Positions 7,032 through 20,499 of a stretch of DNA of 43,245 nt are shown here, in pieces (the first letter of the stretch is position 1; every line of letters begins with the position of its first letter). The notes under the pieces are model-generated. The model saw only the letters and a program-made list of their open reading frames with translations, did no database searches and was not told the origin of the DNA. Position numbers and translations under genes: made by a program. This DNA comes from Verrucomicrobiota bacterium (lineage in GTDB: Bacteria; Verrucomicrobiota; Kiritimatiellia; CAJWTS01). Location: the NCBI GenBank assembly GCA_027623315.1, contig JAQBYD010000033.1, positions 1 to 43,245 on the forward strand, given 5' to 3'.

Positions 7032-7987
7032 CGACAGACCAACTCAAAGAACTTCTAATTCGCGCGCGCCACGAGATCGGCAAGGTGATTATCGGCCAGC
7101 AAGCCGTTATCGACCTTGCCCTCATCACCACGATCACGCGTAGTCACGCTCTGATCGAAGGCGTACCAGGAGTTGCCAAAACACTCCTCGTGCGCACGCT
7201 CGGTCGCGTCTTTGGCGGGGACACTAATCGCATCCAGTTCACGCCGGACCTCATGCCGGCTGACATCACCGGCACGAATGTCTTCAATATGAAGGACAAC
7301 TCCTTCACGCTGATCCGCGGCCCGATCTTCACCTCCTTTCTTCTGGCCGACGAGATCAACCGAGCGCCCGCCAAGACCCAGTCAGCGCTTCTGCAGGCCA
7401 TGCAGGAACGTACGGTCACGATCGATCGCGAAACCCACACGCTGCCGTCGGGCTTCACCGTCTTCGCGACGCAGAATCCGATCGAGTACGAGGGTACCTA
7501 TCCGCTTCCTGAAGCTCAGAAAGACAGATTCATGTTTAAGATACGGATGGATTGCCCCAACCAGGAAGACGAACTGGCCCTGGCGCATCGCATGCTGGGC
7601 GACCTCTCGCCGGAGCATGTCCTCGAGAGCGGAGCCGTGGAGCAGGTTGCCACGACGGAAGACTTCCTGGAGTTCGGGCGAAGCTTGCAGGGCATCACGG
7701 TGCGCGACGAACTGGTGTCCTACGTCGTGGAGGTCGTTCGCGCCACACGCACGCATGGCAGCGTAATGGTCGGTGCCGGACCGCGAGCCACGCAGTGCCT
7801 TCTCCTCGCGAGCCGTGCCCGCGCCGCCATGGAGGATCGAGATTTCGTGACGCCGGATGACGTCAAAAGCAGTTCCACTCCCGTCCTGGAGCATCGCTTG
7901 ATTCTACGTCCTGAATTCGAGATCGAAGGACTATCCCCGCAAGAGGTCGTCGCGCAGATTCTTCAGGAGATCCCTGTGCCACGATGA
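7028..7987 (+). CDS. MoxR-family AAA+ ATPase
   Basis: A 319-residue protein of normal MoxR length. The start ATG overlaps the previous stop (ATGA). Residues 45-52 GVPGVAKT are the Walker A motif, LLADEINRAP (about 105-114) is Walker B, and the sensor region FATQNPIEYEGTYPLPEAQKD is characteristic of the MoxR/RavA branch. The C-terminal lid domain includes VGAGPRATQCLLLASRA. MoxR proteins act as chaperone-like ATPases, often delivering or activating metal-cofactor or envelope proteins together with DUF58 (VWA-like) partners. The partner is encoded immediately downstream with a 4-bp overlap, so the two are almost certainly made in step. The client here is not known. Confidence 0.95.
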   Translation: MTTDQLKELLIRARHEIGKVIIGQQAVIDLALITTITRSHALIEGVPGVAKTLLVRTLGRVFGGDTNRIQFTPDLMPADITGTNVFNMKDNSFTLIRGPIFTSFLLADEINRAPAKTQSALLQAMQERTVTIDRETHTLPSGFTVFATQNPIEYEGTYPLPEAQKDRFMFKIRMDCPNQEDELALAHRMLGDLSPEHVLESGAVEQVATTEDFLEFGRSLQGITVRDELVSYVVEVVRATRTHGSVMVGAGPRATQCLLLASRARAAMEDRDFVTPDDVKSSSTPVLEHRLILRPEFEIEGLSPQEVVAQILQEIPVPR

Positions 7988-9303
7988 TCGTACCGTCCAC
8001 CAGGCTTCTGATCTGGACGCTGATTGCGCTCCCGTTTACCGTAACCGCCGCGGTTTCGCCCGCTGCGCTGATCCTCTCGATCACCGTTCTGATGCTGTTC
8101 GTCGGAATCGCCGCGGTCGATGCCGTAACGGGTCTCCGCCGGATCCGCCTGGTTGAGGCCGCCTTTCCGGAAACGATACGAATGTCCAAGGACCGGGCGG
8201 GCGTGATTCCGATTCTGTTGACCTGCCGGCAGGGACCCCACGCGGCGATCCGCATTGGCATACCACTCCCGGAAGGGATCGAATCCGACAAGGAGGCCCT
8301 GCTCATCGATGCCCCCGACCATGCCGACCTCTCGCGCGTCGACTGGGCCTGCGTGCCGCGATCACGAGGCGCATTCACAGTGGACCAGATCTTCCTTGAG
8401 GTCTCGACTCGCCTCGGGCTCTGGGACGCTCGCCGAACGTGCGCCTCGCGCGTCGATATCCGGGTATACCCAAACCTGATGGGAGAGAGGCGGCGACTGG
8501 CATCCCTTTTCCTCAATCGCGGCGTGTTCGGGATCCATGCGCAGCGGCGTATCGGGCAGGGACGCGATTTCGAGCAACTTCGAGAGTACCAGGCAGGGGA
8601 CGGCTACGAGGACATCCACTGGAAGGCAACCGCGCGACACGGAAAGCCCTATACCAAAATCTATCAGATCGAGCGGACCCAGGAAGTCTACGTCTTGATT
8701 GATTCCTCTCGCCTCAGCGCACGCCAGATCGGCAAGGATACGGCCCTGGACCGCTACGTCACCTCGGCCCTGGTGCTCGGGCTTGCCGCCGAACAGCACG
8801 GAGACCTGTTCGGGCTGCTAACCTTCAGCGACCGAATTGATCGATTCATGCGTGCCCGATCCGGCAAGGCCCATTACGCTGCGTGCCGGGACGGGCTCTA
8901 CACGCTCGCGACAGATCACGTGAGCCCGGATTTCGACGGCCTGTGCGCTTTCATTCGTACCCGCTTGCGTCGCCGTGCGCTGCTCATCGTTCTCACGGAT
9001 CTACTGGACCCCGTTCTGAGTGAGAGCTTCGTGCGTAATATGCGACTGATCAACCGTCAGCACCTGGTGCTCGTCAACTCGATTAAACGACCGCACGTGA
9101 ATGCCCTCTTCTCGGAACCGGTCGGAGACCAGACCGATGAGCTATATCAACGGCTATCCGGCCATGTGCAGTGGACGCAGCTGCGCGAGCTCAACCGAAC
9201 ACTGCACCACATGGGTATCGACATGTCCGAAGTGGATGACGAGCGCATGTCCTCTGAACTCATCGCGCAGTACATGAGCGTCAAGCAGCGGCAACTGATA
9301 TGA
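7984..9303 (+). CDS. DUF58 (VWA-like) membrane protein
   Basis: The protein has 439 residues. Two membrane helices in the first 50 residues (LLIWTLIALPFTVTAAV, then LILSITVLMLFVGIAAVDAV) are followed by an immunoglobulin-like segment and the DUF58 signature at about residues 200-216 (REYQAGDGYEDIHWKATARH). A von Willebrand factor A-like fold follows (VYVLIDSSRLSA, later LLIVLTDLLDP), though a complete MIDAS DxSxS is not obvious: the motif reads DSSRLS. DUF58 proteins are regular partners of MoxR ATPases. The ATGA overlap at both ends places it inside the operon, consistent with a membrane-bound complex with the MoxR, DUF4129 and DUF4350 proteins. Confidence 0.92.
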   Translation: MIVPSTRLLIWTLIALPFTVTAAVSPAALILSITVLMLFVGIAAVDAVTGLRRIRLVEAAFPETIRMSKDRAGVIPILLTCRQGPHAAIRIGIPLPEGIESDKEALLIDAPDHADLSRVDWACVPRSRGAFTVDQIFLEVSTRLGLWDARRTCASRVDIRVYPNLMGERRRLASLFLNRGVFGIHAQRRIGQGRDFEQLREYQAGDGYEDIHWKATARHGKPYTKIYQIERTQEVYVLIDSSRLSARQIGKDTALDRYVTSALVLGLAAEQHGDLFGLLTFSDRIDRFMRARSGKAHYAACRDGLYTLATDHVSPDFDGLCAFIRTRLRRRALLIVLTDLLDPVLSESFVRNMRLINRQHLVLVNSIKRPHVNALFSEPVGDQTDELYQRLSGHVQWTQLRELNRTLHHMGIDMSEVDDERMSSELIAQYMSVKQRQLI

Positions 9304-10331
9304 TCATCGACATCCAACAGTTCATTGCAAGCAGGCGTGCCACCTGGACCGAGTTCGAGGGACGACTCGAGAAACTAGAGTCCCGCGCGGCAGGCCGACT
9401 GAGCGTACGAGAGGTGATGCGCCTGCACTACCTGTATGAGCGCGTGTCCGCCGATCTCGCTGCCATGTCGACCTTCGCCGCCGAGCAGACCACGCGCGAG
9501 TACCTCGAGGCGTTGGTGGCGCGGGCCTACGGCGAGATTCACGAGACACGCGATAGGACCCACCGATTCGCCCCCCTGCGCTGGTTCCTCTGGACGTTCC
9601 CATGTACTTTCCGGCGTCAATGGCGCGCATTCCAACTGGCCGTGCTTCTCACGATCGTCGGCGCCGCGTTTGGCGGAATCGCGCTCTCCGTGGACCCCGA
9701 GGCCAAGTCCGTCATTCTTCCGTTCGATCATCTTCTTGGAGACCCGAGCGAGCGGGTCGAGCAGGAGGAAGGGGCGACCAATGATCGACTGCGCGGCTCC
9801 AAGATCCAGGGAGCGGCGTGGTATTGGACGCACAATACGCGCGTCTCCCTGACGACGATGGCACTCGGCTTCACGTGGGGAATCGGAACGATCATTCTGC
9901 TCTTCTATAACGGGGTCATTCTTGGCGCGGTTATCACCGACTACCTCCTCGCCGGGGAGGCACCCTTCCTGATCGGTTGGCTGCTGCCCCACGGAGCCGT
10001 GGAAATACCGGCCATTCTCGTGGCGGGCCAGGCTGGTCTCGTGTTGGCCGGTGCCCTGATCGGTTGGAAGACGTCCCGTACGTTGAGGGAGCGTATGCGG
10101 CAGATTTCCCCGGACCTGGTAACCCTCGTGTTCGGAGTCGCGCTGATGCTCTTCTGGGCAGGCATCATCGAATCCTTCATGTCTCAGTACCACGAACCCG
10201 TACTACCCTATTCCTTCAAGATCGCATTCGGGACAGTTGAACTTGCGCTCCTGTTCGTCTATCTCGGGATCTGCGGACGCAAGGCCCATCATCGCACCGC
10301 TGCAGGAGATGTGCACGATGCCGCCAGCTAG
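9300..10331 (+). CDS. SpoIIM-like (DUF95) membrane protein
   Basis: The protein has 343 residues and its ATG overlaps the DUF58 stop. The N-terminal 100 residues are soluble and charged (FIASRRATWTEFEGRLEKLE, a typical opening of this family). Helices then begin at about 115 (FQLAVLLTIVGAAFGGIAL), and the family-typical segment HNTRVSLTTMALGFTWGIGT is followed by several more helices and ILVAGQAGLVLAGALIGW. In spore-formers the relative SpoIIM acts in the engulfment machinery. Outside them, as here, it is a member of the MoxR/DUF58/RDD clusters and says nothing about sporulation. Its role here is probably envelope remodelling or a membrane scaffold, by context only. Confidence 0.88.
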   Translation: MIIDIQQFIASRRATWTEFEGRLEKLESRAAGRLSVREVMRLHYLYERVSADLAAMSTFAAEQTTREYLEALVARAYGEIHETRDRTHRFAPLRWFLWTFPCTFRRQWRAFQLAVLLTIVGAAFGGIALSVDPEAKSVILPFDHLLGDPSERVEQEEGATNDRLRGSKIQGAAWYWTHNTRVSLTTMALGFTWGIGTIILLFYNGVILGAVITDYLLAGEAPFLIGWLLPHGAVEIPAILVAGQAGLVLAGALIGWKTSRTLRERMRQISPDLVTLVFGVALMLFWAGIIESFMSQYHEPVLPYSFKIAFGTVELALLFVYLGICGRKAHHRTAAGDVHDAAS

Positions 10332-11076
10332 AACCAACACGATGCTCATTCGGACACCGGAAGGCGTCACGTTCCCGCTGCATCTTGCCGACCCGGTGAC
10401 ACGCTGCCTGGCCTGGTTGATCGACCATTTCTGCATCCTCGCGCTGGCATGGATCATCGGATTCGCGGCCTCCATGCTACGATGGATCTCCTACGATCTT
10501 TCCGGCGCCGTTACGATTGCTCTCTATTTCTGTGGAAGCATCGGCTATCCCATCGTCGCCGAGTGGTTCTGGCGCGGTCAAACGATCGGAAAACGGATAT
10601 TTCGTCTACGCGTGGTCGATGAGGATGGACTCCGCCTGAAGTTCAGCCAGATCGTGATTCGCAATCTGCTTCGATTCGTGGATTCGCTCCCCTCGTTCTA
10701 CCTCGTCGGCGGCGTAGCAACGCTGCTCAACTCGCGCGCCCAGCGACTGGGAGATATCGCCGCCAACACGATCGTGATACGACATGCACAACCCATCGTC
10801 CCGGACCTGGACCAACTGTTACCGGGGAAGTTCAACTCGTTCCGCGGTTACCCTCACCTGGTGGCTCGCCTTCGCCAGGGCGTCTCTCCCGAGGAGGCAG
10901 GTATCGCACTGCGTGCCCTGATGCGCCGTGAGAACCTGGATCCAGAGGCGCGACTGGAGCTCTTCGCGCAACTGACAGGCCATTTCGCGGAACTCGCGGC
11001 GTTCCCCCCCGAGTGCACGGATGGCATCAGCGACGAGCAGTATGTGCGTAACGTGGTGGATGTGCTGTTCCGATAG
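10318..11076 (+). CDS. RDD-family membrane protein
   Basis: The protein has 252 residues from the ATG at 10318, which has GGAG at 10305-10308 as ribosome binding site; the gene overlaps the previous one by 14 bp. The RDD family pattern is present: an Arg near the first helix (RCLAWLIDHFCILALAW), Asp in that helix, and the later QTIGKRIFRLRVVDEDGLRL motif, with NSRAQRLGDIAANTIVIR. Two to three membrane helices are followed by a soluble C-terminal region of about 90 residues. RDD proteins are poorly characterised and some act in ion homeostasis. It closes the cluster: the next gene lies 165 bp away and I see no strong terminator hairpin in that gap. Confidence 0.88.
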   Translation: MPPARTNTMLIRTPEGVTFPLHLADPVTRCLAWLIDHFCILALAWIIGFAASMLRWISYDLSGAVTIALYFCGSIGYPIVAEWFWRGQTIGKRIFRLRVVDEDGLRLKFSQIVIRNLLRFVDSLPSFYLVGGVATLLNSRAQRLGDIAANTIVIRHAQPIVPDLDQLLPGKFNSFRGYPHLVARLRQGVSPEEAGIALRALMRRENLDPEARLELFAQLTGHFAELAAFPPECTDGISDEQYVRNVVDVLFR

Positions 11077-12270: not shown

Positions 12271-13416
12271 TCAGGGCAGAAACTTCTTCTTCTTGAGCTT
12301 CTCGGGAAGGTAGGTCTCGAGCACGTAATTGAGCCCGTGCTTGGCGAAAGCCTGCTGCTCGATACGGACGCCCATTTTTAGCATATCCTTGAGCGCCTGC
12401 TGCCACTCCTTATGGTGCTTGATGAACGGGTCGTTCTTGAGCGCGTCGTTGGCGCGCTTGATATCGGCCGCCTCGAGCGGATGCGTCGCATCATGCAGGT
12501 TGTACTGGTCGATATCCCCGGGGGTTACACCGAGGAACTGCGCCTGAGGCACGCAGAAGAACTGATTGATGTGCGCTGCCTGCCCCGAGCCGACCTTCAA
12601 GGTTCGGTAGATATTACAATAGCCGTACGGATCCCCATCGGTAAAGACCAGTACCGGGAGTTTCTGATCGTCCGCAAGGCGCCGAACGAACCGGCGACAC
12701 GCGCGTGTCGGCACTCCGCTCATCGAGATAAGCACACAGCTTGCCGTATCGTAGTACTGGTGATGCACAAGGCGCTGAAAGAGCGACGAGGTCTCTACGA
12801 CCAGGATGAACTTCGCCTTGCACTCGAATCGCAGATGCTCGACTCGCGAGGGGATGCTCCACGCGCCCGACCCCAGCTTGGCGCAGTTGATCTGCACCTC
12901 TTCGCCGCTCACGGGATTGCGATCAATCACGACGAGGGAGCCCGCCACATCGCCGCCGCGCTCCTCCGGAATGTACCCGAGTTGCTCCCGGTTGACGCCA
13001 ACCAGGGCCTCCATATCGTCGAGCAGTGAATCGCTCTCGGGTTGATGATCGAATCGGCACTCACCCCAGCTCTTACTGTTGTAATAGATCTCGCGTTTAC
13101 CCGCGATATCGTTCTTGTCCAGCAGATCATTCTTGGTCGTCGCGAGCAGGCGCATCGACTGCGCGAAGGTCTTCACGGTGTTATAGGAGAGGGTACGCGT
13201 TGAGATCTTCCCCAGGATCTCGAAGTGTCCCTTGCGAGGATTGTATTTTACGTTCGAGAGCGAACGTATGGGGAACTTAAGATTCGGCTTGCGATGTTTT
13301 TTTACGATCTCGGTGTAGACGCGCTCACCAATCGACTCGATCAACCGCGACGCTTTCTCCTTCTCCGCATCGGAGACCGCCTTCTTCCGTGCGGTGGCTT
13401 TTTTCTTCTTCGCCAT
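12271..13416 (-). CDS. top6A: DNA topoisomerase VI subunit A-like protein (Spo11/Top6A family)
   Basis: A 381-residue protein with the full Top6A architecture. The N-terminus is very lysine-rich. The winged-helix domain carries KREIYYNSKSWGE at residues 108-119, where the second Tyr (112) matches the catalytic tyrosine of archaeal Top6A. The Toprim domain has FILVVETSS (Glu208) and VFTDGDPYG (Asp260, Asp262) as metal ligands. Length and motif order match archaeal Top6A. In archaea the ATPase subunit Top6B is encoded next door; here no GHKL ATPase gene lies in the whole window. The upstream neighbour on the same strand is a DUF362 gene only 15 bp away, so the two are probably co-transcribed. 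The family cuts both strands of DNA through a tyrosyl link; activity without Top6B is uncertain. Confidence 0.9.
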   Translation of the reverse strand: MAKKKKATARKKAVSDAEKEKASRLIESIGERVYTEIVKKHRKPNLKFPIRSLSNVKYNPRKGHFEILGKISTRTLSYNTVKTFAQSMRLLATTKNDLLDKNDIAGKREIYYNSKSWGECRFDHQPESDSLLDDMEALVGVNREQLGYIPEERGGDVAGSLVVIDRNPVSGEEVQINCAKLGSGAWSIPSRVEHLRFECKAKFILVVETSSLFQRLVHHQYYDTASCVLISMSGVPTRACRRFVRRLADDQKLPVLVFTDGDPYGYCNIYRTLKVGSGQAAHINQFFCVPQAQFLGVTPGDIDQYNLHDATHPLEAADIKRANDALKNDPFIKHHKEWQQALKDMLKMGVRIEQQAFAKHGLNYVLETYLPEKLKKKKFLP

Positions 13417-13431
13417 GCGTCGTGCTGACTC

Positions 13432-14730
13432 CTATTCGGCAGGGGCAACCTTTCGAGACGATCGCCGGCGTCGCGCCGCGAACTCAGGCGCCTCCCTCAT
13501 ACAGGTGCCGAGTATGCGCAGCGAACGCATGAAGAGCTTCATGCTGTCCTGTTTTAACTTGAGCGGGGCATCGCCCACGTCATCCCACCCCTTCGTCTCG
13601 AGATCGTCCGGATCGATCGCCTTCTCTTCCCAGTTGTTGAACAGGCGTCCCCACTCGCTGGTGAGGATATCCCGGATGATTCGTTGATGCGTCGGATACC
13701 AGAAGCTGTCGTGATAGAGCACACTGGCCATATAGGCCCAGGGAGCGAGCACCGTTTTGAGTGACCACTCGACTGGTTTTTTGAGCGGCCCCCAGTAGAT
13801 CTTGTGCTGCATTCGGCTCGCGAAAGTCATCTTTTTGAAGGGGCCCACAAAGTGCCAGTTCTCATCCGCGGCATCAACATCGCCCACGATCTCGATCTCG
13901 CGCGGATCCCCGCATCCCAGGCCGAGCTCATGCGCCAACCTCACGAACTTGATATCCTTGAGCGGATCCATGCCCATCAGCTTTGCCGCGACGGCGTCAA
14001 TGGCCACCTGGTCGGATGAAGCAAGCAATACGTTCTTCACATGCGGGATCATGCAGCGCGGCCCCGGACCGTCGCCCACGAAGGTGCCATCCATGACGGC
14101 GAAGACTCCGCGATGTATCTTTTTCTGGATCATTAAGAGGTCAACCAGGGTCTCGTGAATTACCGGGTGCGTCCAGTGCCGCCGCTCGTTGAGCAATCCA
14201 CCGAACGCATTCTTCATGGCACCCGTGGTCGTCGTAAAGATGTGGGTTTTCACCGTGGGCAGATGAATGATATTCTCCCCGATGAAGCGTTTCGGGATCA
14301 TGAACCCGTCAGGGAAGACCTCGTTGAGACACAGGAACTTATCGGCGAGGTCTCCGACCGCCTCGCGCACGTCGATCCACTCCTCGCCTTCATAGAGGTG
14401 CACGTTGCGAAGCCCGTGGGCGTCGGTTACATCGACCTGCTTGTTCTCCCTCTCGCCGAGATGCGCGTCGATGACGACGGTACGATTGTGACAGGCATGC
14501 AGCAGGTCCATCGAGTATCCATCGCGTTTCATCGCGCGGATCACGCCGTCGAGCTGCCAGGGAGTCGTCGAGGAGCCGGGGAAGAAAAAGTGCCAGCTGA
14601 TGTTGATCTTCAGGCCCGTGTCCGCATCCTTTGTGACCGTCTCCTGGTAGTCCGCGAGGTTCATCAGGCGGTGGTAATCATCGAGGACCGTGGCCGGTGT
14701 GGTGCGGCATATGGCGACTTTCGATTTCAT
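13432..14730 (-). CDS. DUF362 domain protein
   Basis: A 432-residue protein. The DUF362 core is recognisable: NIIHLPTVKTHIFTTTTGAM followed by KNAFGG, then VFAVMDGTFVGDGPGPR, and VAIDAVAAKLMGMDPLKDI. DUF362 proteins often carry ferredoxin domains, but no CxxCxxC cluster is seen here, so this is the cluster-free form. The C-terminal 120 residues (PVEWSLKTVLAPWAYMASVL onward) are an extra tryptophan-rich region, ending in a basic RRRRSSRK tail. The start ATG at 14728-14730 is preceded by an A/T-rich TATAAATA that could belong to a promoter. The function of the family is unknown. It lies 15 bp upstream of the Top6A-like gene and probably shares its transcript. Confidence 0.85.
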   Translation of the reverse strand: MKSKVAICRTTPATVLDDYHRLMNLADYQETVTKDADTGLKINISWHFFFPGSSTTPWQLDGVIRAMKRDGYSMDLLHACHNRTVVIDAHLGERENKQVDVTDAHGLRNVHLYEGEEWIDVREAVGDLADKFLCLNEVFPDGFMIPKRFIGENIIHLPTVKTHIFTTTTGAMKNAFGGLLNERRHWTHPVIHETLVDLLMIQKKIHRGVFAVMDGTFVGDGPGPRCMIPHVKNVLLASSDQVAIDAVAAKLMGMDPLKDIKFVRLAHELGLGCGDPREIEIVGDVDAADENWHFVGPFKKMTFASRMQHKIYWGPLKKPVEWSLKTVLAPWAYMASVLYHDSFWYPTHQRIIRDILTSEWGRLFNNWEEKAIDPDDLETKGWDDVGDAPLKLKQDSMKLFMRSLRILGTCMREAPEFAARRRRSSRKVAPAE

Positions 14731-14854: not shown

Positions 14855-15475
14855 CTACGGCGAGGCGAGACTCTCGAGGAATTTTCTCTTGGCCAGCTCG
14901 ACGCCGTGGACCGCATCCTCGTAGTACGGCGATCGTTCGACCAGGAACAGCGATTGTTCGGCCTTGTCGAATTCCCCGGCACGCGCATAGAGCCTGGCCA
15001 TAATGGCGTGATTGTGCGGATGCCAATAATGCCAGTCGAGATACCGCTCCATCTCCGCAACCGCGCTGACGAGGTCTTCTCCAGCGAGCAGCGCCACTCG
15101 ACGCAGCCGAAGCGTGCGATCATAGTAATTGAGACGTAACCCTCGGTCGCACCAGTGCTGGGAGAGTTTCAGTAACGCCGCCGCTTCCTCGTGGGACTCC
15201 GCATCGAAGCTGGCATAGTAGGCCTTCTCAGAAATGTACTGCTGAACATAGAAGTTGAATGGGTATAGTTTCTCGGCGGTGCGACATAGTTTCAGCGCGA
15301 GTTCAAGGTTATCCTTACCCGCGCCGTATTTGGCCGCCCGATACGCACGTTGAGAAATCGTGGCGCATACGGAGTAGATCGTACCTGCGGCGCAGACGAC
15401 GAGAAGAACGAGCCCCACGAGGGATGCTTGCGCCGGGCTCAGACCGGAACGCCGCGATGACCGGGAACCCGGCAT
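14855..15475 (-). CDS. Membrane-anchored TPR-like small protein
   Basis: A 206-residue protein that I do not recognise by name. It has one N-terminal membrane helix (ASLVGLVLLVVCAAGTIYSV, about residues 18-37) and then an all-helical region with TPR-like spacing: LELALKLCRTAEKLYPFN, EEAAALLKLSQHWCDRGLRL, and YLDWHYWHPHNHAIMARLYA followed by RAGEFDKAEQSL. It is the last gene of the minus-strand operon with Wzz/kinase, Wza-like protein and coiled-coil protein, separated by only 4 bp from the one before. A role as periplasmic scaffold in polysaccharide or O-antigen ligase-type machinery is plausible (TPR segments follow Wzy-like proteins in related loci), but it is inference. Confidence 0.7.
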   Translation of the reverse strand: MPGSRSSRRSGLSPAQASLVGLVLLVVCAAGTIYSVCATISQRAYRAAKYGAGKDNLELALKLCRTAEKLYPFNFYVQQYISEKAYYASFDAESHEEAAALLKLSQHWCDRGLRLNYYDRTLRLRRVALLAGEDLVSAVAEMERYLDWHYWHPHNHAIMARLYARAGEFDKAEQSLFLVERSPYYEDAVHGVELAKRKFLESLASP

Positions 15476-15479
15476 GCGC

Positions 15480-16115
15480 TTACCGATTTCCGACCGGCGT
15501 CACCAGTGGAATCGTGACCGGTATTCCATCGATACGGCGGATGGTGTTGGTCTCGTCAATGGGCAGGAGAGACCCCTGCATCAGAAGCCAGCGCTTCTTT
15601 AGAATATCCGTTTGGATGCGACTCCTGGCTTCCAGCGCTTCGATCTTGCGAAGACTGCGCTTCACTTTCGCCAACGCCGATTTCTGACCGCGCACCGACT
15701 CGCTTGTCATGGCAAGCTTCGCGTGAGCTTGTGCCCGTTCGGCCTCGCGCGCCGCCTGGGTGTGCCAGCGGGTTATGTCCTCAACCGTATCGCGGCAATC
15801 TGCCAGGGCAGCATCCGCGGCCCGCTTGAGTTTCTGCGCCCGTTTGGCTGCGTCCTTGTCCGATACCCCGCGGGCCTCAACCATCACAAGAGCCGCATCC
15901 GTGTTCGCTGCGGTCGCGTTCTCGAGGGCTTTCAACGCGATCTCGTGGTACGTCTCGCAGGCCTGGGCGAGCGCCACACATTTCAGCCCGAGCGTCGCTG
16001 CCTGCTGTGCGAACTCTGCGGGCTTGGCTTCCTCGACGGCAGCGCGAGCCGCCATGCCGTTCGTGAGGGAGCCGCAGACGATCAACGCGCAGAGAACTCT
16101 CGCGATCAGTACCAT
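15480..16115 (-). CDS. Secreted coiled-coil protein of the polysaccharide operon
   Basis: A 211-residue protein with a clear N-terminal signal peptide (VLCALIVCGSLTNGMAARA). The mature part is almost entirely Ala/Lys/Glu-rich helix, with heptad-like runs between about residues 60 and 165, as in AKRAQKLKRAADAALADC and REAERAQAHAKLAM. The C-terminal 40 residues (SLLPIDETNTIRRIDGIPVT) are not helical. It overlaps the Wza-like gene by 10 bp and is followed after 4 bp by the TPR-like gene. I know of no named family; it may be a periplasmic spacer or partner of the export channel, by context. Confidence 0.7.
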   Translation of the reverse strand: MVLIARVLCALIVCGSLTNGMAARAAVEEAKPAEFAQQAATLGLKCVALAQACETYHEIALKALENATAANTDAALVMVEARGVSDKDAAKRAQKLKRAADAALADCRDTVEDITRWHTQAAREAERAQAHAKLAMTSESVRGQKSALAKVKRSLRKIEALEARSRIQTDILKKRWLLMQGSLLPIDETNTIRRIDGIPVTIPLVTPVGNR

Positions 16116-16894
16116 CGCCTCGGCACCTCGATGATGTCGCCGGGGTCAATCACCGGGTCGCGATCCTTACCGGCCTCGATCTTGGGCAGGCTATGCGTGG
16201 TGGTCGCGCCGCTCTCTTTGCGAATCTTGATTTTTTTATCATTGGCCCATTGGGTGGGTCCGCTTGCCGTCGCGATTGCCTTGGTTAACGTGAGTCCGGG
16301 ACGGAGCGAATACGGCGACGGGCGATTCACTTCGCCCTTGATGAAGAAGGTGCGCGCGGATGGAATAATCGTCACCACCAGTTCCTTCTGGAAGATCTTC
16401 TTTTCAGCCACGTAGATCTGCCAGACCCTTTCTTCGGCGTCTGGCGGCGTCAGTCCGTCAAGTCTCACGGATCCCACGTAAGGCAAGGTGATGTTTCCGC
16501 GCGCATCAATGACCTCCTCGAGCGTGACCAACTCGAGCGCGTGAAGAGAGATTGATAGCGCATCGCCTTTGGAGAGGGTTCTCGCCACAGGTGCGATCTC
16601 GGCATCCGCCGCGACGACAGTGGCGGTCGCATCCTTCTTGCGCACGTCTTTCGGTCTCGTCGAGTTCGGCGGCCGCTCTGCATTCCCGGCCGGCGCCCGG
16701 GGCGTGAGGCGGCCGGCATCCAGCATCTCGAGGGGCGTCACCGGCGACCCGCCTGGCAAACGCAATCCGTCCAGGTTGGGCTGGTACTCTGCCGTGGCAC
16801 GATCCCAACTCGTCGTACTCGTGCAGCCAGCCAGTCGCATGCCAAGACACGCCACCGTCACGGTCCGCAGGATGATGCTCTGGCGGCACTTCAT
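16106..16894 (-). CDS. Wza/BexD-like polysaccharide export lipoprotein
   Basis: The protein has 262 residues. The signal peptide ends in a lipobox (LAGC, Cys24), so it is an outer-membrane lipoprotein. Residues about 100-190 form the Poly_export domain (LSKGDALSISLHALELVTLE, ITLPYVGSVRLDGLTPPDAE, a VVTI strand). An SLBB domain follows (TFFIKGEVNRPSPYSLRPGL) with the closing VIDPGDIIEVPRRWY. It is shorter than E. coli Wza (about 380), with a single SLBB domain. It probably forms the outer-membrane channel for exopolysaccharide made under control of the Wzz/kinase encoded just upstream; the two genes overlap by one base. Confidence 0.9.
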   Translation of the reverse strand: MKCRQSIILRTVTVACLGMRLAGCTSTTSWDRATAEYQPNLDGLRLPGGSPVTPLEMLDAGRLTPRAPAGNAERPPNSTRPKDVRKKDATATVVAADAEIAPVARTLSKGDALSISLHALELVTLEEVIDARGNITLPYVGSVRLDGLTPPDAEERVWQIYVAEKKIFQKELVVTIIPSARTFFIKGEVNRPSPYSLRPGLTLTKAIATASGPTQWANDKKIKIRKESGATTTHSLPKIEAGKDRDPVIDPGDIIEVPRRWY

Positions 16895-19032
16895 TAGTAC
16901 GTGGCCTCCTCTTCCGCGCGTGCTTCTTCTGCGCGGTCCTCCTCGGCACGTTGATAGGTCGAGTAGTAGGTGTGATAGTAGTAGTAGTAATATGAATCGC
17001 GGGACACATTGATGTTGTTCAGCACCACACCGGCGAGATTCCCGCCGACGTGGTCGATCAGCGTCCGCGCGCGCGCCGAAACCGAGCGTGGATACTTGCG
17101 GTACTGAATCACCAGCAGGGCCGCAGCCGCTTCGCTAGCCAGTACCGAGGCATCGCTAACGCCCAGGATGGGCGGAGAATCAAGGAATACGAAATCATAG
17201 GTCTTGCGGACGTCGTCTATCACTTTGCGCATCCGGGAGGCATCCAGCACGCCGTGCGCTGCCGATGGAAGCCGCCCGCTCGGCATTAGAAACAGGTTCG
17301 GTACCGATGTCGGCATCACGGCGTCCTCGCAATCCATCTCACCGAGCAGCACGTTGGCCAGGCCGAGTCGATTGGAGAGATTAAACATCTTGTGTTGTCG
17401 AGGGCGGCGCAGGTCCGCATCGATGATCAAGGTCTTCTGCCCGAGCTGGGCATTAACGAAAGCAAGGTTTGCCGTCGTGAGGGACTTGCCCTCTCCGACG
17501 CTGCCGCTCGTCACGCACAGCGTATTCGCGCCATCCGACAATCCCTTCGAAAAGCTCAAGTTCGTACGAATCACGCGGTACGCCTCGGCATGTGGACTCG
17601 AGGGCCCCTCCTCGATCAGGGGAAGCACCTTCTGCGGAATGATTCCCAGCACCGACGCCCCAATGTGGCGTTCAATGTCCTCGACGGTGCGGATCGAGGT
17701 ATCGATATACTCCATGAAGAATGCCACCCCGACCCCGCTCGCGAGTCCCACGACGATGCTGATCAGAAGATTCAGCAAGAGGTTCGGACGATCCGGCTTC
17801 TGCATATCGGGCACCTCGGCGATGTCAACGACTTCAACTATCGTGTGCGGTATGGCCTGCTCGATATCGACTTGCTTGATCCGCACTTCCAAGATGTGGG
17901 CAATGCGCTCTTGCCGGTCGAGCTCCTGTGTAGCCTCCTTAAGCTTGCGGTAGCCCTCGTCTTCGTCCAGCATTCTGTCCGCGCGAAGTTCCACGAGCTT
18001 CTTCTCGAGCGCGGCGACTTCACTCGCGGATCGAACGGCATCCAACTCCACGGCGCGGCGCAGCCCATCCAGCTTATCCTGAATCTTGGCGTTGAGGGTT
18101 GTCAGCTTCTCCTTGAGGCTGATGACTCGAGGATGGTTTTCCGCCAGCGCCTTCTGCATCTCGGCGAGGGTTAGATCGTCGGCGTCGCGCTGCTCGGTCA
18201 AGCCACGCAATGTGCCGCCCTGCGACGTGAATTCCTGGGAGTTCAGCAACTCCCGGTCGCTCATCGCTTTCACGCGCTCAGAGAATACCCTACGGCTCTC
18301 GGACTGCGCGACGACCACGGCGTAGTGCTGCGAGATTGCCTGCAGGATGATTTTCTGGTCGGCGTCGAGCGTCCCGGTTGAGAAGTCTGCGTCTCCAACG
18401 ATGTTATACGTCTTGCGGATGTCGGCCACGCGCTGCTCAAGCGCCTTGACGTGGGCGGCCTGGCGTTTGTATTCGTCATCGAGCGCCTTTAGGGCACCCC
18501 GAATCTGCTTGCGGTTCACCTCGTCACGTTGGCGCTCATAGACACGTGCGATCGTGTTTGCAATGGTCGCCGCCAGTTGCCCCGGATTATCCTCGGGCAT
18601 GCTCATGTAGACTTGGATCTCGACGAGATTCGTGTCCCGGAAGAGCTGCACACTTGCATTTCGCGCAAGATAATCCCGTGCCCTCTGAAAACTCCCCGGT
18701 CGCCCGGCCATCTGGAACTGTTCCTCGAGATTGAGTTCCTGCACGACAGCGCTCAAGACGCGCCGCGACATGATAACCTCGAACTCCGTCTTCAGAAATG
18801 CGAGATAGGTGAATTGCGAGCCGACGGACTCCCCGCCGAAGGGCTGGATGTCAGGCCCACGGCGCTCGATCTTGATCCTGGTTGAAGCCTTGTAGACCTT
18901 CGGGATCGCGAATATCGTGATCAGAGCACCGGCGATGACGACCATCAGGACGATCGCGATGACCAGTTCCTTTCGCGAGCGGAGAACGCGCCAGTAATCT
19001 AGAAAATGTGAATCGTCGCCTGTCTCGTGCAT
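16894..19032 (-). CDS. Wzz-type chain-length determinant fused to BY-type tyrosine kinase
   Basis: A 712-residue protein of the Wzc type. Residues about 10-45 hold the Wzz start and first membrane helix (ELVIAIVLMVVIAGALITIF). A long periplasmic coiled coil runs to about residue 420, and the second helix is NLLLNLLISIVVGLASGVGV. The cytoplasmic kinase has Walker A SGSVGEGKSLTTA (about 505-517), Walker A' LIIDADLRRP and Walker B FVFLDSPP. The C-terminus is a tyrosine cluster (SYYYYYYHTYYSTYQ) followed by Glu/Arg/Ala repeats, and ends with Tyr. In this family the cluster is autophosphorylated and controls oligomer state and polymer length. It is followed with a one-base overlap by the Wza-like gene. 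No glycosyltransferase or polymerase genes lie in the window. Confidence 0.95.
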   Translation of the reverse strand: MHETGDDSHFLDYWRVLRSRKELVIAIVLMVVIAGALITIFAIPKVYKASTRIKIERRGPDIQPFGGESVGSQFTYLAFLKTEFEVIMSRRVLSAVVQELNLEEQFQMAGRPGSFQRARDYLARNASVQLFRDTNLVEIQVYMSMPEDNPGQLAATIANTIARVYERQRDEVNRKQIRGALKALDDEYKRQAAHVKALEQRVADIRKTYNIVGDADFSTGTLDADQKIILQAISQHYAVVVAQSESRRVFSERVKAMSDRELLNSQEFTSQGGTLRGLTEQRDADDLTLAEMQKALAENHPRVISLKEKLTTLNAKIQDKLDGLRRAVELDAVRSASEVAALEKKLVELRADRMLDEDEGYRKLKEATQELDRQERIAHILEVRIKQVDIEQAIPHTIVEVVDIAEVPDMQKPDRPNLLLNLLISIVVGLASGVGVAFFMEYIDTSIRTVEDIERHIGASVLGIIPQKVLPLIEEGPSSPHAEAYRVIRTNLSFSKGLSDGANTLCVTSGSVGEGKSLTTANLAFVNAQLGQKTLIIDADLRRPRQHKMFNLSNRLGLANVLLGEMDCEDAVMPTSVPNLFLMPSGRLPSAAHGVLDASRMRKVIDDVRKTYDFVFLDSPPILGVSDASVLASEAAAALLVIQYRKYPRSVSARARTLIDHVGGNLAGVVLNNINVSRDSYYYYYYHTYYSTYQRAEEDRAEEARAEEEATY

Positions 19033-19055
19033 AGCTGGACCAAAACTTTCGGGCC

Positions 19056-19088
19056 AATTAAAGTAAATGAGGCCTCGTGAGCCTCATT
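19056..19088 (-). terminator. Hairpin terminator after the outer-membrane barrel gene
   Basis: AATGAGGC (19066-19073) and GCCTCATT (19081-19088) form a perfect 8-bp stem with a 7-base loop. Read on the minus strand the stem is followed by TACTTTAATT. It lies 77 bp beyond the stop of the barrel gene and 34 bp before the Wzz/kinase start, so it may end or attenuate transcription between the two. Confidence 0.6.
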
Positions 19089-19164
19089 CGCGACAACCCC
19101 GTGTCTACCGCTTGGTGTTGTCTCCGCCCAGGGAAACGGCGGCCATTCTAAGGTCGATACCGTC

Positions 19165-20379
19165 TTAGAGCTTCATCTGCCAGGTCACGGTCCCCGTCGT
19201 TCGGTCGTAGTCGCGGTTGGTGCCGACATCGACGTCGGAAGAAAGGTCCTGGTGAGAGGCTTCAGCTTTAATCTTCTGACGGTTATCGAGTTGATACTCG
19301 ACCCCGCCATGAACGGCAACGAGATCCTCATCGCCGCCACGCACGACGCCGGCTAATCCCGAGGGCACCTCGTCATATTCGCTCACTCGGTACTGCACTC
19401 CGCCGAGTAGCTTTATTTTCTTACTCACGACGTGCTCCAGCGAGGCGGTCAGATGCGTGTGCTCCTGGGAGGCAAAGGGAGCCACGTCCGAATCCCGCAG
19501 CTCCAGTCCCGCACCAAGACGTAGACGCGTCTTGGCACGCGAGTCACTCGAGAGCGTCGCACTCACGAAAGGCGATGATTCGCTGCCCAGCGTCGTGTCG
19601 TCATGATCAATTTCGGTAATACCCACGCGGGCTCCGGCGTGCATGCCATTACCCAAAACGCGGTGAACACCAATCACGCCCTGCACGCGATCGAAATCAC
19701 GGATGGCGCTGGTACTGTCAAATTCATACGCGCCGACTTCGACTTCAGCCAGGACCGCCGTATCGTCACGGACCTGTCGCCAGACCGTCAGACTCGCGCT
19801 GGCGGCCTCTTCGTCGAGATTCGCGGCGGCTCCCGCGGAATCATATTCCTTGAGACGATGATCAACGCGCAGATCCACGTAGACGCTCTTGGTCAGCAGG
19901 TAGGAGGCCAGCCCCTGGATGCGGTTAAGGAAATACGCTCCATCCTGACGCAAGGTTCCGCCCCCCGAGACGATCGCGGGGTCTTCGGTCACATTGTAAA
20001 AGTCGCGCAGCTCGATACGGAAGCGCTCACTGAACTCATGATCCAGATTGGCCCCTATATCATGATATAGCTCGTTGTCATCCTCGCCTAGTGAGGGATC
20101 CGAGCGATAGCGATACGTTGGCGAGTAGTAAAACTCAAGGAGCGTTCCGGGCCTCTCGATACGGCCGTCTGCGCGCGGAGATACCTTAATGTCCGTATTG
20201 CTCTCTTCGGCCGTGGCCGTTGAATCGCGGTTATCCGTGGTAGAAGCAGAGACTTTGAGCGAAAAGCCAAAGGGATTAGACCTCGTCTTCCCGTCGGTTT
20301 TTTTCTCCTGGGCACTGCTGAATGTAGGCACGCCTCCGAGAATCACGAGCGCGCAGGTCCAGACAATCCAATTTCGCAT
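19165..20379 (-). CDS. Outer-membrane beta-barrel protein of the polysaccharide locus
   Basis: The protein has 404 residues from the ATG at 20379, which is preceded by AGGAG at good spacing. A further in-frame ATG at 20412 with its own AGGAG is possible. The signal peptide is WIVWTCALVILGGVPTFSSA followed by Gln. The mature chain is rich in alternating hydrophobic/polar strands, with Tyr, Arg and Asp-rich turns (FYYSPTYRYRSDPSL, FRIELRDFYNV, YVDLRVDHRLKEYD). It ends in VTWQMKL, with the terminal strand pattern of a barrel. It resembles the outer-membrane barrel proteins often found next to Wzz/Wza genes in exosortase- or Vps-type loci. Its job is probably polymer passage or outer-membrane anchoring; not proven. 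Confidence 0.8.
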   Translation of the reverse strand: MRNWIVWTCALVILGGVPTFSSAQEKKTDGKTRSNPFGFSLKVSASTTDNRDSTATAEESNTDIKVSPRADGRIERPGTLLEFYYSPTYRYRSDPSLGEDDNELYHDIGANLDHEFSERFRIELRDFYNVTEDPAIVSGGGTLRQDGAYFLNRIQGLASYLLTKSVYVDLRVDHRLKEYDSAGAAANLDEEAASASLTVWRQVRDDTAVLAEVEVGAYEFDSTSAIRDFDRVQGVIGVHRVLGNGMHAGARVGITEIDHDDTTLGSESSPFVSATLSSDSRAKTRLRLGAGLELRDSDVAPFASQEHTHLTASLEHVVSKKIKLLGGVQYRVSEYDEVPSGLAGVVRGGDEDLVAVHGGVEYQLDNRQKIKAEASHQDLSSDVDVGTNRDYDRTTGTVTWQMKL

Positions 20380-20422
20380 AACAATATTCTCCTGGTCGGT
20401 CACACGATTCATGGGCATCTCC

Positions 20423-20452
20423 TTGACACGGAGCGCCCTCCTGATGCAATAT
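20423..20452 (+). promoter_or_regulatory. Candidate sigma70 promoter for rnhC
   Basis: TTGACA at 20423-20428 is a perfect -35 box. CAATAT at 20447-20452 is a weak -10 with an 18-bp spacer, 48 bp upstream of the rnhC ATG. On the other strand TTGACG (20485-20490) and TAAACA (20462-20467) with a 17-bp spacer could serve the divergent barrel gene. Confidence 0.4.
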
Positions 20453-20499
20453 GAGGCCCTTTGTTTAGGGAAAACCAGCGAGGCCGTCAACAAGGAAAT

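Follow-up and report, generated by a model that had tools for sequence, protein, structure and literature searches.

A topoisomerase VI A subunit gene in a Kiritimatiellia bacterium and its predicted B subunit partner on another contig

The whole stretch of DNA analysed here (43,245 nucleotides, hereafter the window) stems from a bacterium of the class Kiritimatiellia and contains a gene for a topoisomerase VI A-type protein (Top6A), directly preceded by a gene for a DUF362 protein. The locus raises the question of what this Top6A works with. From the sequence of the window, the initial annotation had described an “orphan” Top6A and had offered three options, i.e. an orphan cutter, part of a Topo VIII-like or Spo11-like system, or a normal enzyme with its B subunit encoded elsewhere. 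The window is contig C50 of a draft assembly (G000; 3.9 Mb, 129 contigs, 95% complete), and the analysis was extended to the whole assembly and to a sample of 193 genomes of the class. The features discussed are compiled in Table 1.

Table 1. Location of the features discussed (positions refer to the window unless a contig is named)
Feature	Position	Strand	Description
top6A, DNA topoisomerase VI subunit A	12271..13416	-	381 aa; full-length; Pfam domains, PDB match, alignment
Intergenic gap, DUF362 stop to top6A start	13417..13431	-	15 nt; sequence read directly
DUF362 protein	13432..14730	-	432 aa; PF04015 at 69.8 bits (cut-off 24); directly upstream of top6A
top6B	C19:100437-102260	-	608-aa open frame, no stops; GHKL ATPase and transducer over cut-off
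DUF58, SpoIIM-domain and RDD-family genes	7984-11076	+	consecutive genes, each plus-strand
Minus-strand run	14855-20493	-	two ORFs without Pfam match, then polysaccharide-export genes (SLBB/Poly_export protein, Wzz/AAA_31 chain-length/ATPase protein, beta-barrel)

The window Top6A contains the Pfam domains TP6A_N, Topo_VI_alpha and TOP6A-Spo11_Toprim, each above its cut-off, with a joint span of residues 82-374. The best match among solved structures is 1d3y, a Topo VI A subunit (E 3.5e-101), followed by 2q2e (E 8e-57) and 2zbk (E 1.1e-42). Six NCBIfam models for Top6A match as well, none of them at its curated cut-off (best 438 bits versus 675). Tyr112, Glu208, Asp260 and Asp262, which the initial annotation had listed as intact, were found at exactly these positions and are invariant in all 101 rows of the Top6A alignment (some genomes are represented twice; 88 rows are left once identical ones are removed). 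We take the catalytic tyrosine to be the second residue of the YY pair, based on the alignment with 1d3y and on the residue numbering of that protein. Both hallmarks of a topoisomerase VI A subunit, the winged-helix catalytic tyrosine and the Toprim acidic triad, are thus present in a protein of which a genome search revealed only one copy. The N-terminus carries a Lys-rich tail; the Top6A frame of G014, the second sampled genome of the same family, opens with a long Lys-rich tail that exceeds that of the window protein (L105:9670-9850).

The absence of top6B from the window, noted at the outset, was borne out. A search of the whole assembly for the Topo VI B transducer yielded exactly one match, which is located on contig C19 (189 bits, E 7.8e-56, over the cut-off). 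The C19 protein aligns with the Top6B chain 2q2e_B in two stretches (E 5.5e-137), and its H2TH region has no Pfam match. In an alignment of 71 B rows, the column of the transducer residue Lys524 contains Lys in 71 of 71, and the column of Glu81, presumably the catalytic glutamate according to the GHKL motif, contains Glu in 48 rows, a gap in 19 and another letter in 4. A cognate B subunit with a GHKL ATPase and a transducer is therefore encoded in the same genome, and the term “orphan” does not apply to the window Top6A. On its 43-kb contig, top6A is 12 kb in from the end; for top6B, the distance to the nearer end of its 157-kb contig is about 55 kb. Because the two genes are at least ~67 kb apart, their separation is not a contig-end artefact.

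To place this arrangement, gene order was determined throughout the class sample, with adjacency defined as a distance of under 5 kb. Top6A matches were found in 87 of the 193 genomes, Top6B matches in 89, and both in 83. Of these 83 genomes, 63 have the two genes adjacent, and all 63 show the same order and strand, with B directly upstream of A and 9 to 2,326 bases between the matched parts. We infer that the order top6B-top6A is ancestral. In the remaining 20 genomes A and B are not near each other; these comprise the window's genome and G014, both with the genes on different contigs, and 18 more, and they include at least four (G045, G049, G132, and G178) for which a contig start is no more than 300 bases away from one of the genes; in these, A and B may nevertheless be adjacent. 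Adjacency is usual, not essential, for topoisomerase VI, and the dispersed arrangement seen in the window's genome, although in the minority, recurs within the class.

Six genomes have a Top6B match without a Top6A match, and four have the opposite. Three of these four are explicable: the match in G131 is weak (E 6.6e-4) and has two internal stops (it is counted among the 87, but was left out of the comparison of topo VI with topo IV below), that in G056 is a fragment at a contig end, and G173 is a 76%-complete genome. The fourth, G050, is 90% complete and has one copy of PF00521 and a Top6A match (G050:C168:10157-11251), whereas Top6B gave no match; it is the sample's nearest thing to a real orphan, or it reflects an assembly gap. 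In the two-contig genome G011, Top6A and Top6B are each present in several pieces (G011:C1:1423586-1427119), indicating either sequencing indels or decay.

The kinship of the two subunits was analysed with trees of all non-identical sequences covering at least 80% of A (88 rows) or at least 68% of B (67 rows, obtained with a short search), both of which were midpoint-rooted only. Within named genome contigs, the window Top6A has 14 relatives with 74-83% identity. All of them are from metagenome-assembled genomes (MAGs), which are labelled Kiritimatiellae/Kiritimatiellaeota, Lentisphaerae/Lentisphaerales or Verrucomicrobia, with the exception of L004, labelled only “uncultured bacterium”. From these labels, the host was assigned to the class Kiritimatiellia. 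G014 was taken to be identical with row L003 of the A tree, contig 22 (49,758 bases) being common to both. In the A tree, the window protein groups with G014 and L005, a Lentisphaerales MAG (support 99/98). This group is part of a clade of 40 rows (100/100), which are from class genomes, MAGs with the labels given above and L004. The window protein nests among the Top6A proteins of genomes with an adjacent B; the placement suggested by the initial annotation was obtained in a tree of Top6A rows. In the B tree, in which L005 has no row, the window's genome again groups with G014 (SH-aLRT 97), inside a 31-row clade (100). The common grouping with G014 and the co-occurrence of the subunits (of 93 genomes of the class sample with A or B, 83 have both) show that A and B are co-inherited. 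According to Allen and Maxwell 2024 (PMC11302465), bacterial Topo VI was laterally acquired from archaea. The nearest outside group is formed by Woesearchaeota/Nanoarchaeota rows in the A tree (99/90), and by Phycisphaerae rows together with L018, a deltaproteobacterial MAG, in the B tree (SH-aLRT 94). The two trees differ in this respect, and therefore they do not fix the source of the transfer.

Of the three options, the last is thus supported by a Top6B on C19 and by the grouping of both subunits with G014: we regard it as very likely that the window Top6A pairs with the C19 Top6B, and we predict that they form an ordinary A2B2 topoisomerase VI. The A domains, the catalytic tyrosine, the Toprim acids and a cognate Top6B with GHKL and transducer domains are shared with archaeal-type Topo VI (1d3y, 2q2e, 2zbk), whereas the location of the A and B genes on different contigs, the position of top6A behind a DUF362 gene and the bacterial host are not. 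By analogy with Topo VI enzymes of known biochemistry, a pair of B subunits would take up ATP and enclose DNA, and both strands of one duplex would be cut by the Tyr112 residues of the two A subunits, with a metal held by the Toprim acids. A second duplex would be passed through the break, which would then be resealed. Sister-chromosome decatenation is usually the work of topo IV. In the cell, the predicted enzyme would mainly contribute to this process, beside gyrase and a topo IV-like pair.

Gyrase is encoded on contig C13 (GyrA 1239 bits versus an NCBIfam cut-off of 902; C-terminal domain of the B subunit, PF00986, 104 bits). A second type IIA pair is located on C85. Its A subunit reaches 796 bits with the NCBIfam model for topo IV subunit A (cut-off 644). 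Its B subunit, of which a 423-aa part was compared with NCBIfam, matches PF00986 with 35 bits (cut-off 29.8) and the gyrB and parE models only below their cut-offs (best 291 versus 740), which is why we call the pair “topo IV-like”. Direct reading of the sequences revealed that the motif QRRGGKG, which we take to be the GyrA box, is present twice in GyrA and is absent from the C85 A subunit. The genome thus encodes gyrase (C13), a topo IV-like pair (C85) and topo VI (A on C50, B on C19). The bacterial Topo VI described by Allen and Maxwell 2024 (PMC11302465) likewise coexists with gyrase. In contrast, this survey limits the set of gyrase, topo IV and topo VI to Pseudomonadota and Terrabacteria, and the window's genome falls outside that limit. 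The main text of PMC11302465 contains no word beginning with Kiritimatiell, Lentisphaer or Verrucomicrob. A literature search retrieved no paper that pairs Kiritimatiell with topoisomerase VI, and the papers combining Kiritimatiell with topoisomerase are on other subjects, as judged by their titles and the starts of their abstracts.

The presence of three type II enzymes leads to the question of how topo VI and topo IV are distributed in the class. The comparison was made on the 117 class genomes with a completeness of 90% or more and a contamination of 5% or less. The presence of topo IV was scored from the A subunit only (E <=1e-110), a threshold at which the window's own GyrA, serving as control, gave no match. 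Top6A was found in 51 and the topo IV A subunit in 90 of the 117 genomes. The 25 genomes with Top6A and without topo IV were additionally searched with the PF00521 profile. A single copy was present in 23 of them, with frames of 821-882 aa except for G078 (589 aa); G101 has a second fragment at a contig end, and nothing was found in G045. After correction, 27 genomes have both enzymes (the window's genome and 26 further ones with topo VI and the topo IV A subunit; gyrase was checked in the window's genome alone), 24 have topo VI only, including G033 with only Top6B and G050 with only Top6A found, 64 have topo IV only, one has neither (G013), and one is undecided (G045). The complementarity is highly significant in Fisher's test (p ~1e-9), with the restriction that genomes of one family are not independent. 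At the level of families, a genome lacking topo IV occurs in 12 of the 21 families with topo VI, compared to 1 of the 15 families without it (p 0.004).

The distribution in Kiritimatiellia fits an idea put forward in PMC11302465, namely that topo VI can make up for an absent topo IV in bacteria. The same paper mentions an unpublished rescue of an E. coli parE temperature-sensitive strain by M. mazei Topo VI. The complementarity and the single PF00521 copy in nearly all apparent topo VI-only genomes support, without proving, a replacement of topo IV by topo VI, which PMC11302465 proposes for bacteria in general. Against it stand the scoring of topo IV from one subunit, genes possibly missed in drafts, the relatedness of genomes within families and the inclusion of G050, which has no Top6B match, among the topo VI-only genomes; moreover, topo IV is retained in roughly every second genome with topo VI, and the replacement would thus be incomplete. 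On balance, we lean slightly towards the view that, in many Kiritimatiellia, chromosome decatenation passed from topo IV to topo VI, with the window's lineage keeping both, which would add to the reading as an ordinary topoisomerase VI and not contradict it. A more specific version appears about evenly balanced, namely that an archaeal-derived topo VI took over decatenation from topo IV many times in the class, and that the window's genome represents a redundant intermediate with three type II enzymes and topo VI genes already uncoupled. Since almost every genome lacking one of topo IV and topo VI has the other, it is directly testable in this class why some bacteria keep an archaeal-type topoisomerase.

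A rival reading is that the DUF362 protein works with Top6A, e.g. as a redox partner or regulator, and that the gene pair is a functional unit. The coupling noted by the initial annotation is real, with both genes on the same strand and a gap of 15 nt. At the TAG stop of the DUF362 gene, and overlapping it, is the purine run AGGAG, a putative ribosome-binding site of top6A. The description of the DUF362 gene as the only same-strand neighbour is not quite accurate, as minus-strand ORFs resume 124 nt upstream of this gene and continue to position 20493. The pair is present in both sampled genomes of the window's family, which belong to two genera, with gaps of 15 nt and 20 nt and with 88% identity between the two DUF362 proteins. 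Its persistence while the surrounding genes differ is compatible with a functional unit: the B locus is syntenic on both sides between the two genomes, and at the A locus the DUF362-top6A pair alone is shared.

Outside the family, the coupling does not hold. Orthologues of the DUF362 protein (E <=1e-30) were found in 63 of the 193 class genomes, 14 of which have no Top6A match, and 38 genomes with a Top6A match lack an orthologue at this threshold. The 49 genomes with both proteins have them on the same contig only in the window's genome and G014, and on different contigs in the other 47, and on this ground a class-wide functional partnership was rejected. Of the 87 Top6A genomes, 47 carry the DUF362 gene on a different contig and 38 have none at the threshold; with 85 genomes in these two groups, the DUF362 protein is probably dispensable for Topo VI in the class. 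With two genomes of one family, the linkage may have been inherited as one arrangement. It is most simply explained by a single rearrangement in the ancestor of the family, after which top6A would have lain behind the DUF362 gene and would perhaps have been transcribed with it. The literature search retrieved no paper combining DUF362 with topoisomerase. A functional partnership is thus very unlikely; the DUF362 protein shares the location of top6A, and there is no evidence for its membership in the enzyme. The initial annotation had stated that a top6B gene elsewhere in the genome and an unconserved DUF362 link would indicate an ordinary Topo VI with dispersed subunits; the former was found on C19, and the latter is nearly the case, the link being confined to one family. 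In G059, a genome without a Top6A match, genes related to the polysaccharide-export run of the window are located near the DUF362 gene, in another orientation; with 28-39% identity, this similarity is too weak to be informative.

Least probable of all, and in our view hardly credible, is that the window Top6A acts without Top6B, either as a DNA cutter on its own or within a system of defence or recombination (Spo11-, MksG/JetD- or Topo VIII-like). In favour of this, top6A is not beside top6B, its Toprim region weakly matches Wadjet JetD (21.8 bits, E 2e-5), viral Mini-A homologues are mentioned by Allen and Maxwell (PMC11302465), and G050 has a Top6A match alone. Against it, the window protein is full-length with the complete Top6A domain set, has E values of 1.1e-42 to 3.5e-101 with Top6A structures but only 0.015 with yeast Spo11, nests among the Top6A of genomes with adjacent B, and belongs to a class in which 83 of 87 genomes with A also have B. 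An orphan cutter was rejected on account of the Top6B on C19, and a Spo11- or JetD-like identity on sequence, the Toprim region being similar but the sequence similarity only marginal. Both the orphan-cutter and the Topo VIII/Spo11-like options are thus unsupported. Neither a Spo11-type sequence nor the lack of a true Top6B, which would characterize Spo11 or Mini-A/Topo VIII proteins, was found; the genome of the window, unlike the Spo11 and Wadjet JetD/MksG systems, has a true Top6B. A false lead is thereby removed, as the window locus does not encode an orphan bacterial cutter.

Among the matches listed (the best 120 of 8000), seven close relatives of the window Top6A (P0013, P0023, P0066, P0081, P0088, P0095, and P0101) bear the name “DNA topoisomerase IV subunit A” in their source records despite their Topo VI A domains. 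Name-based searches would therefore confuse topo VI with topo IV.
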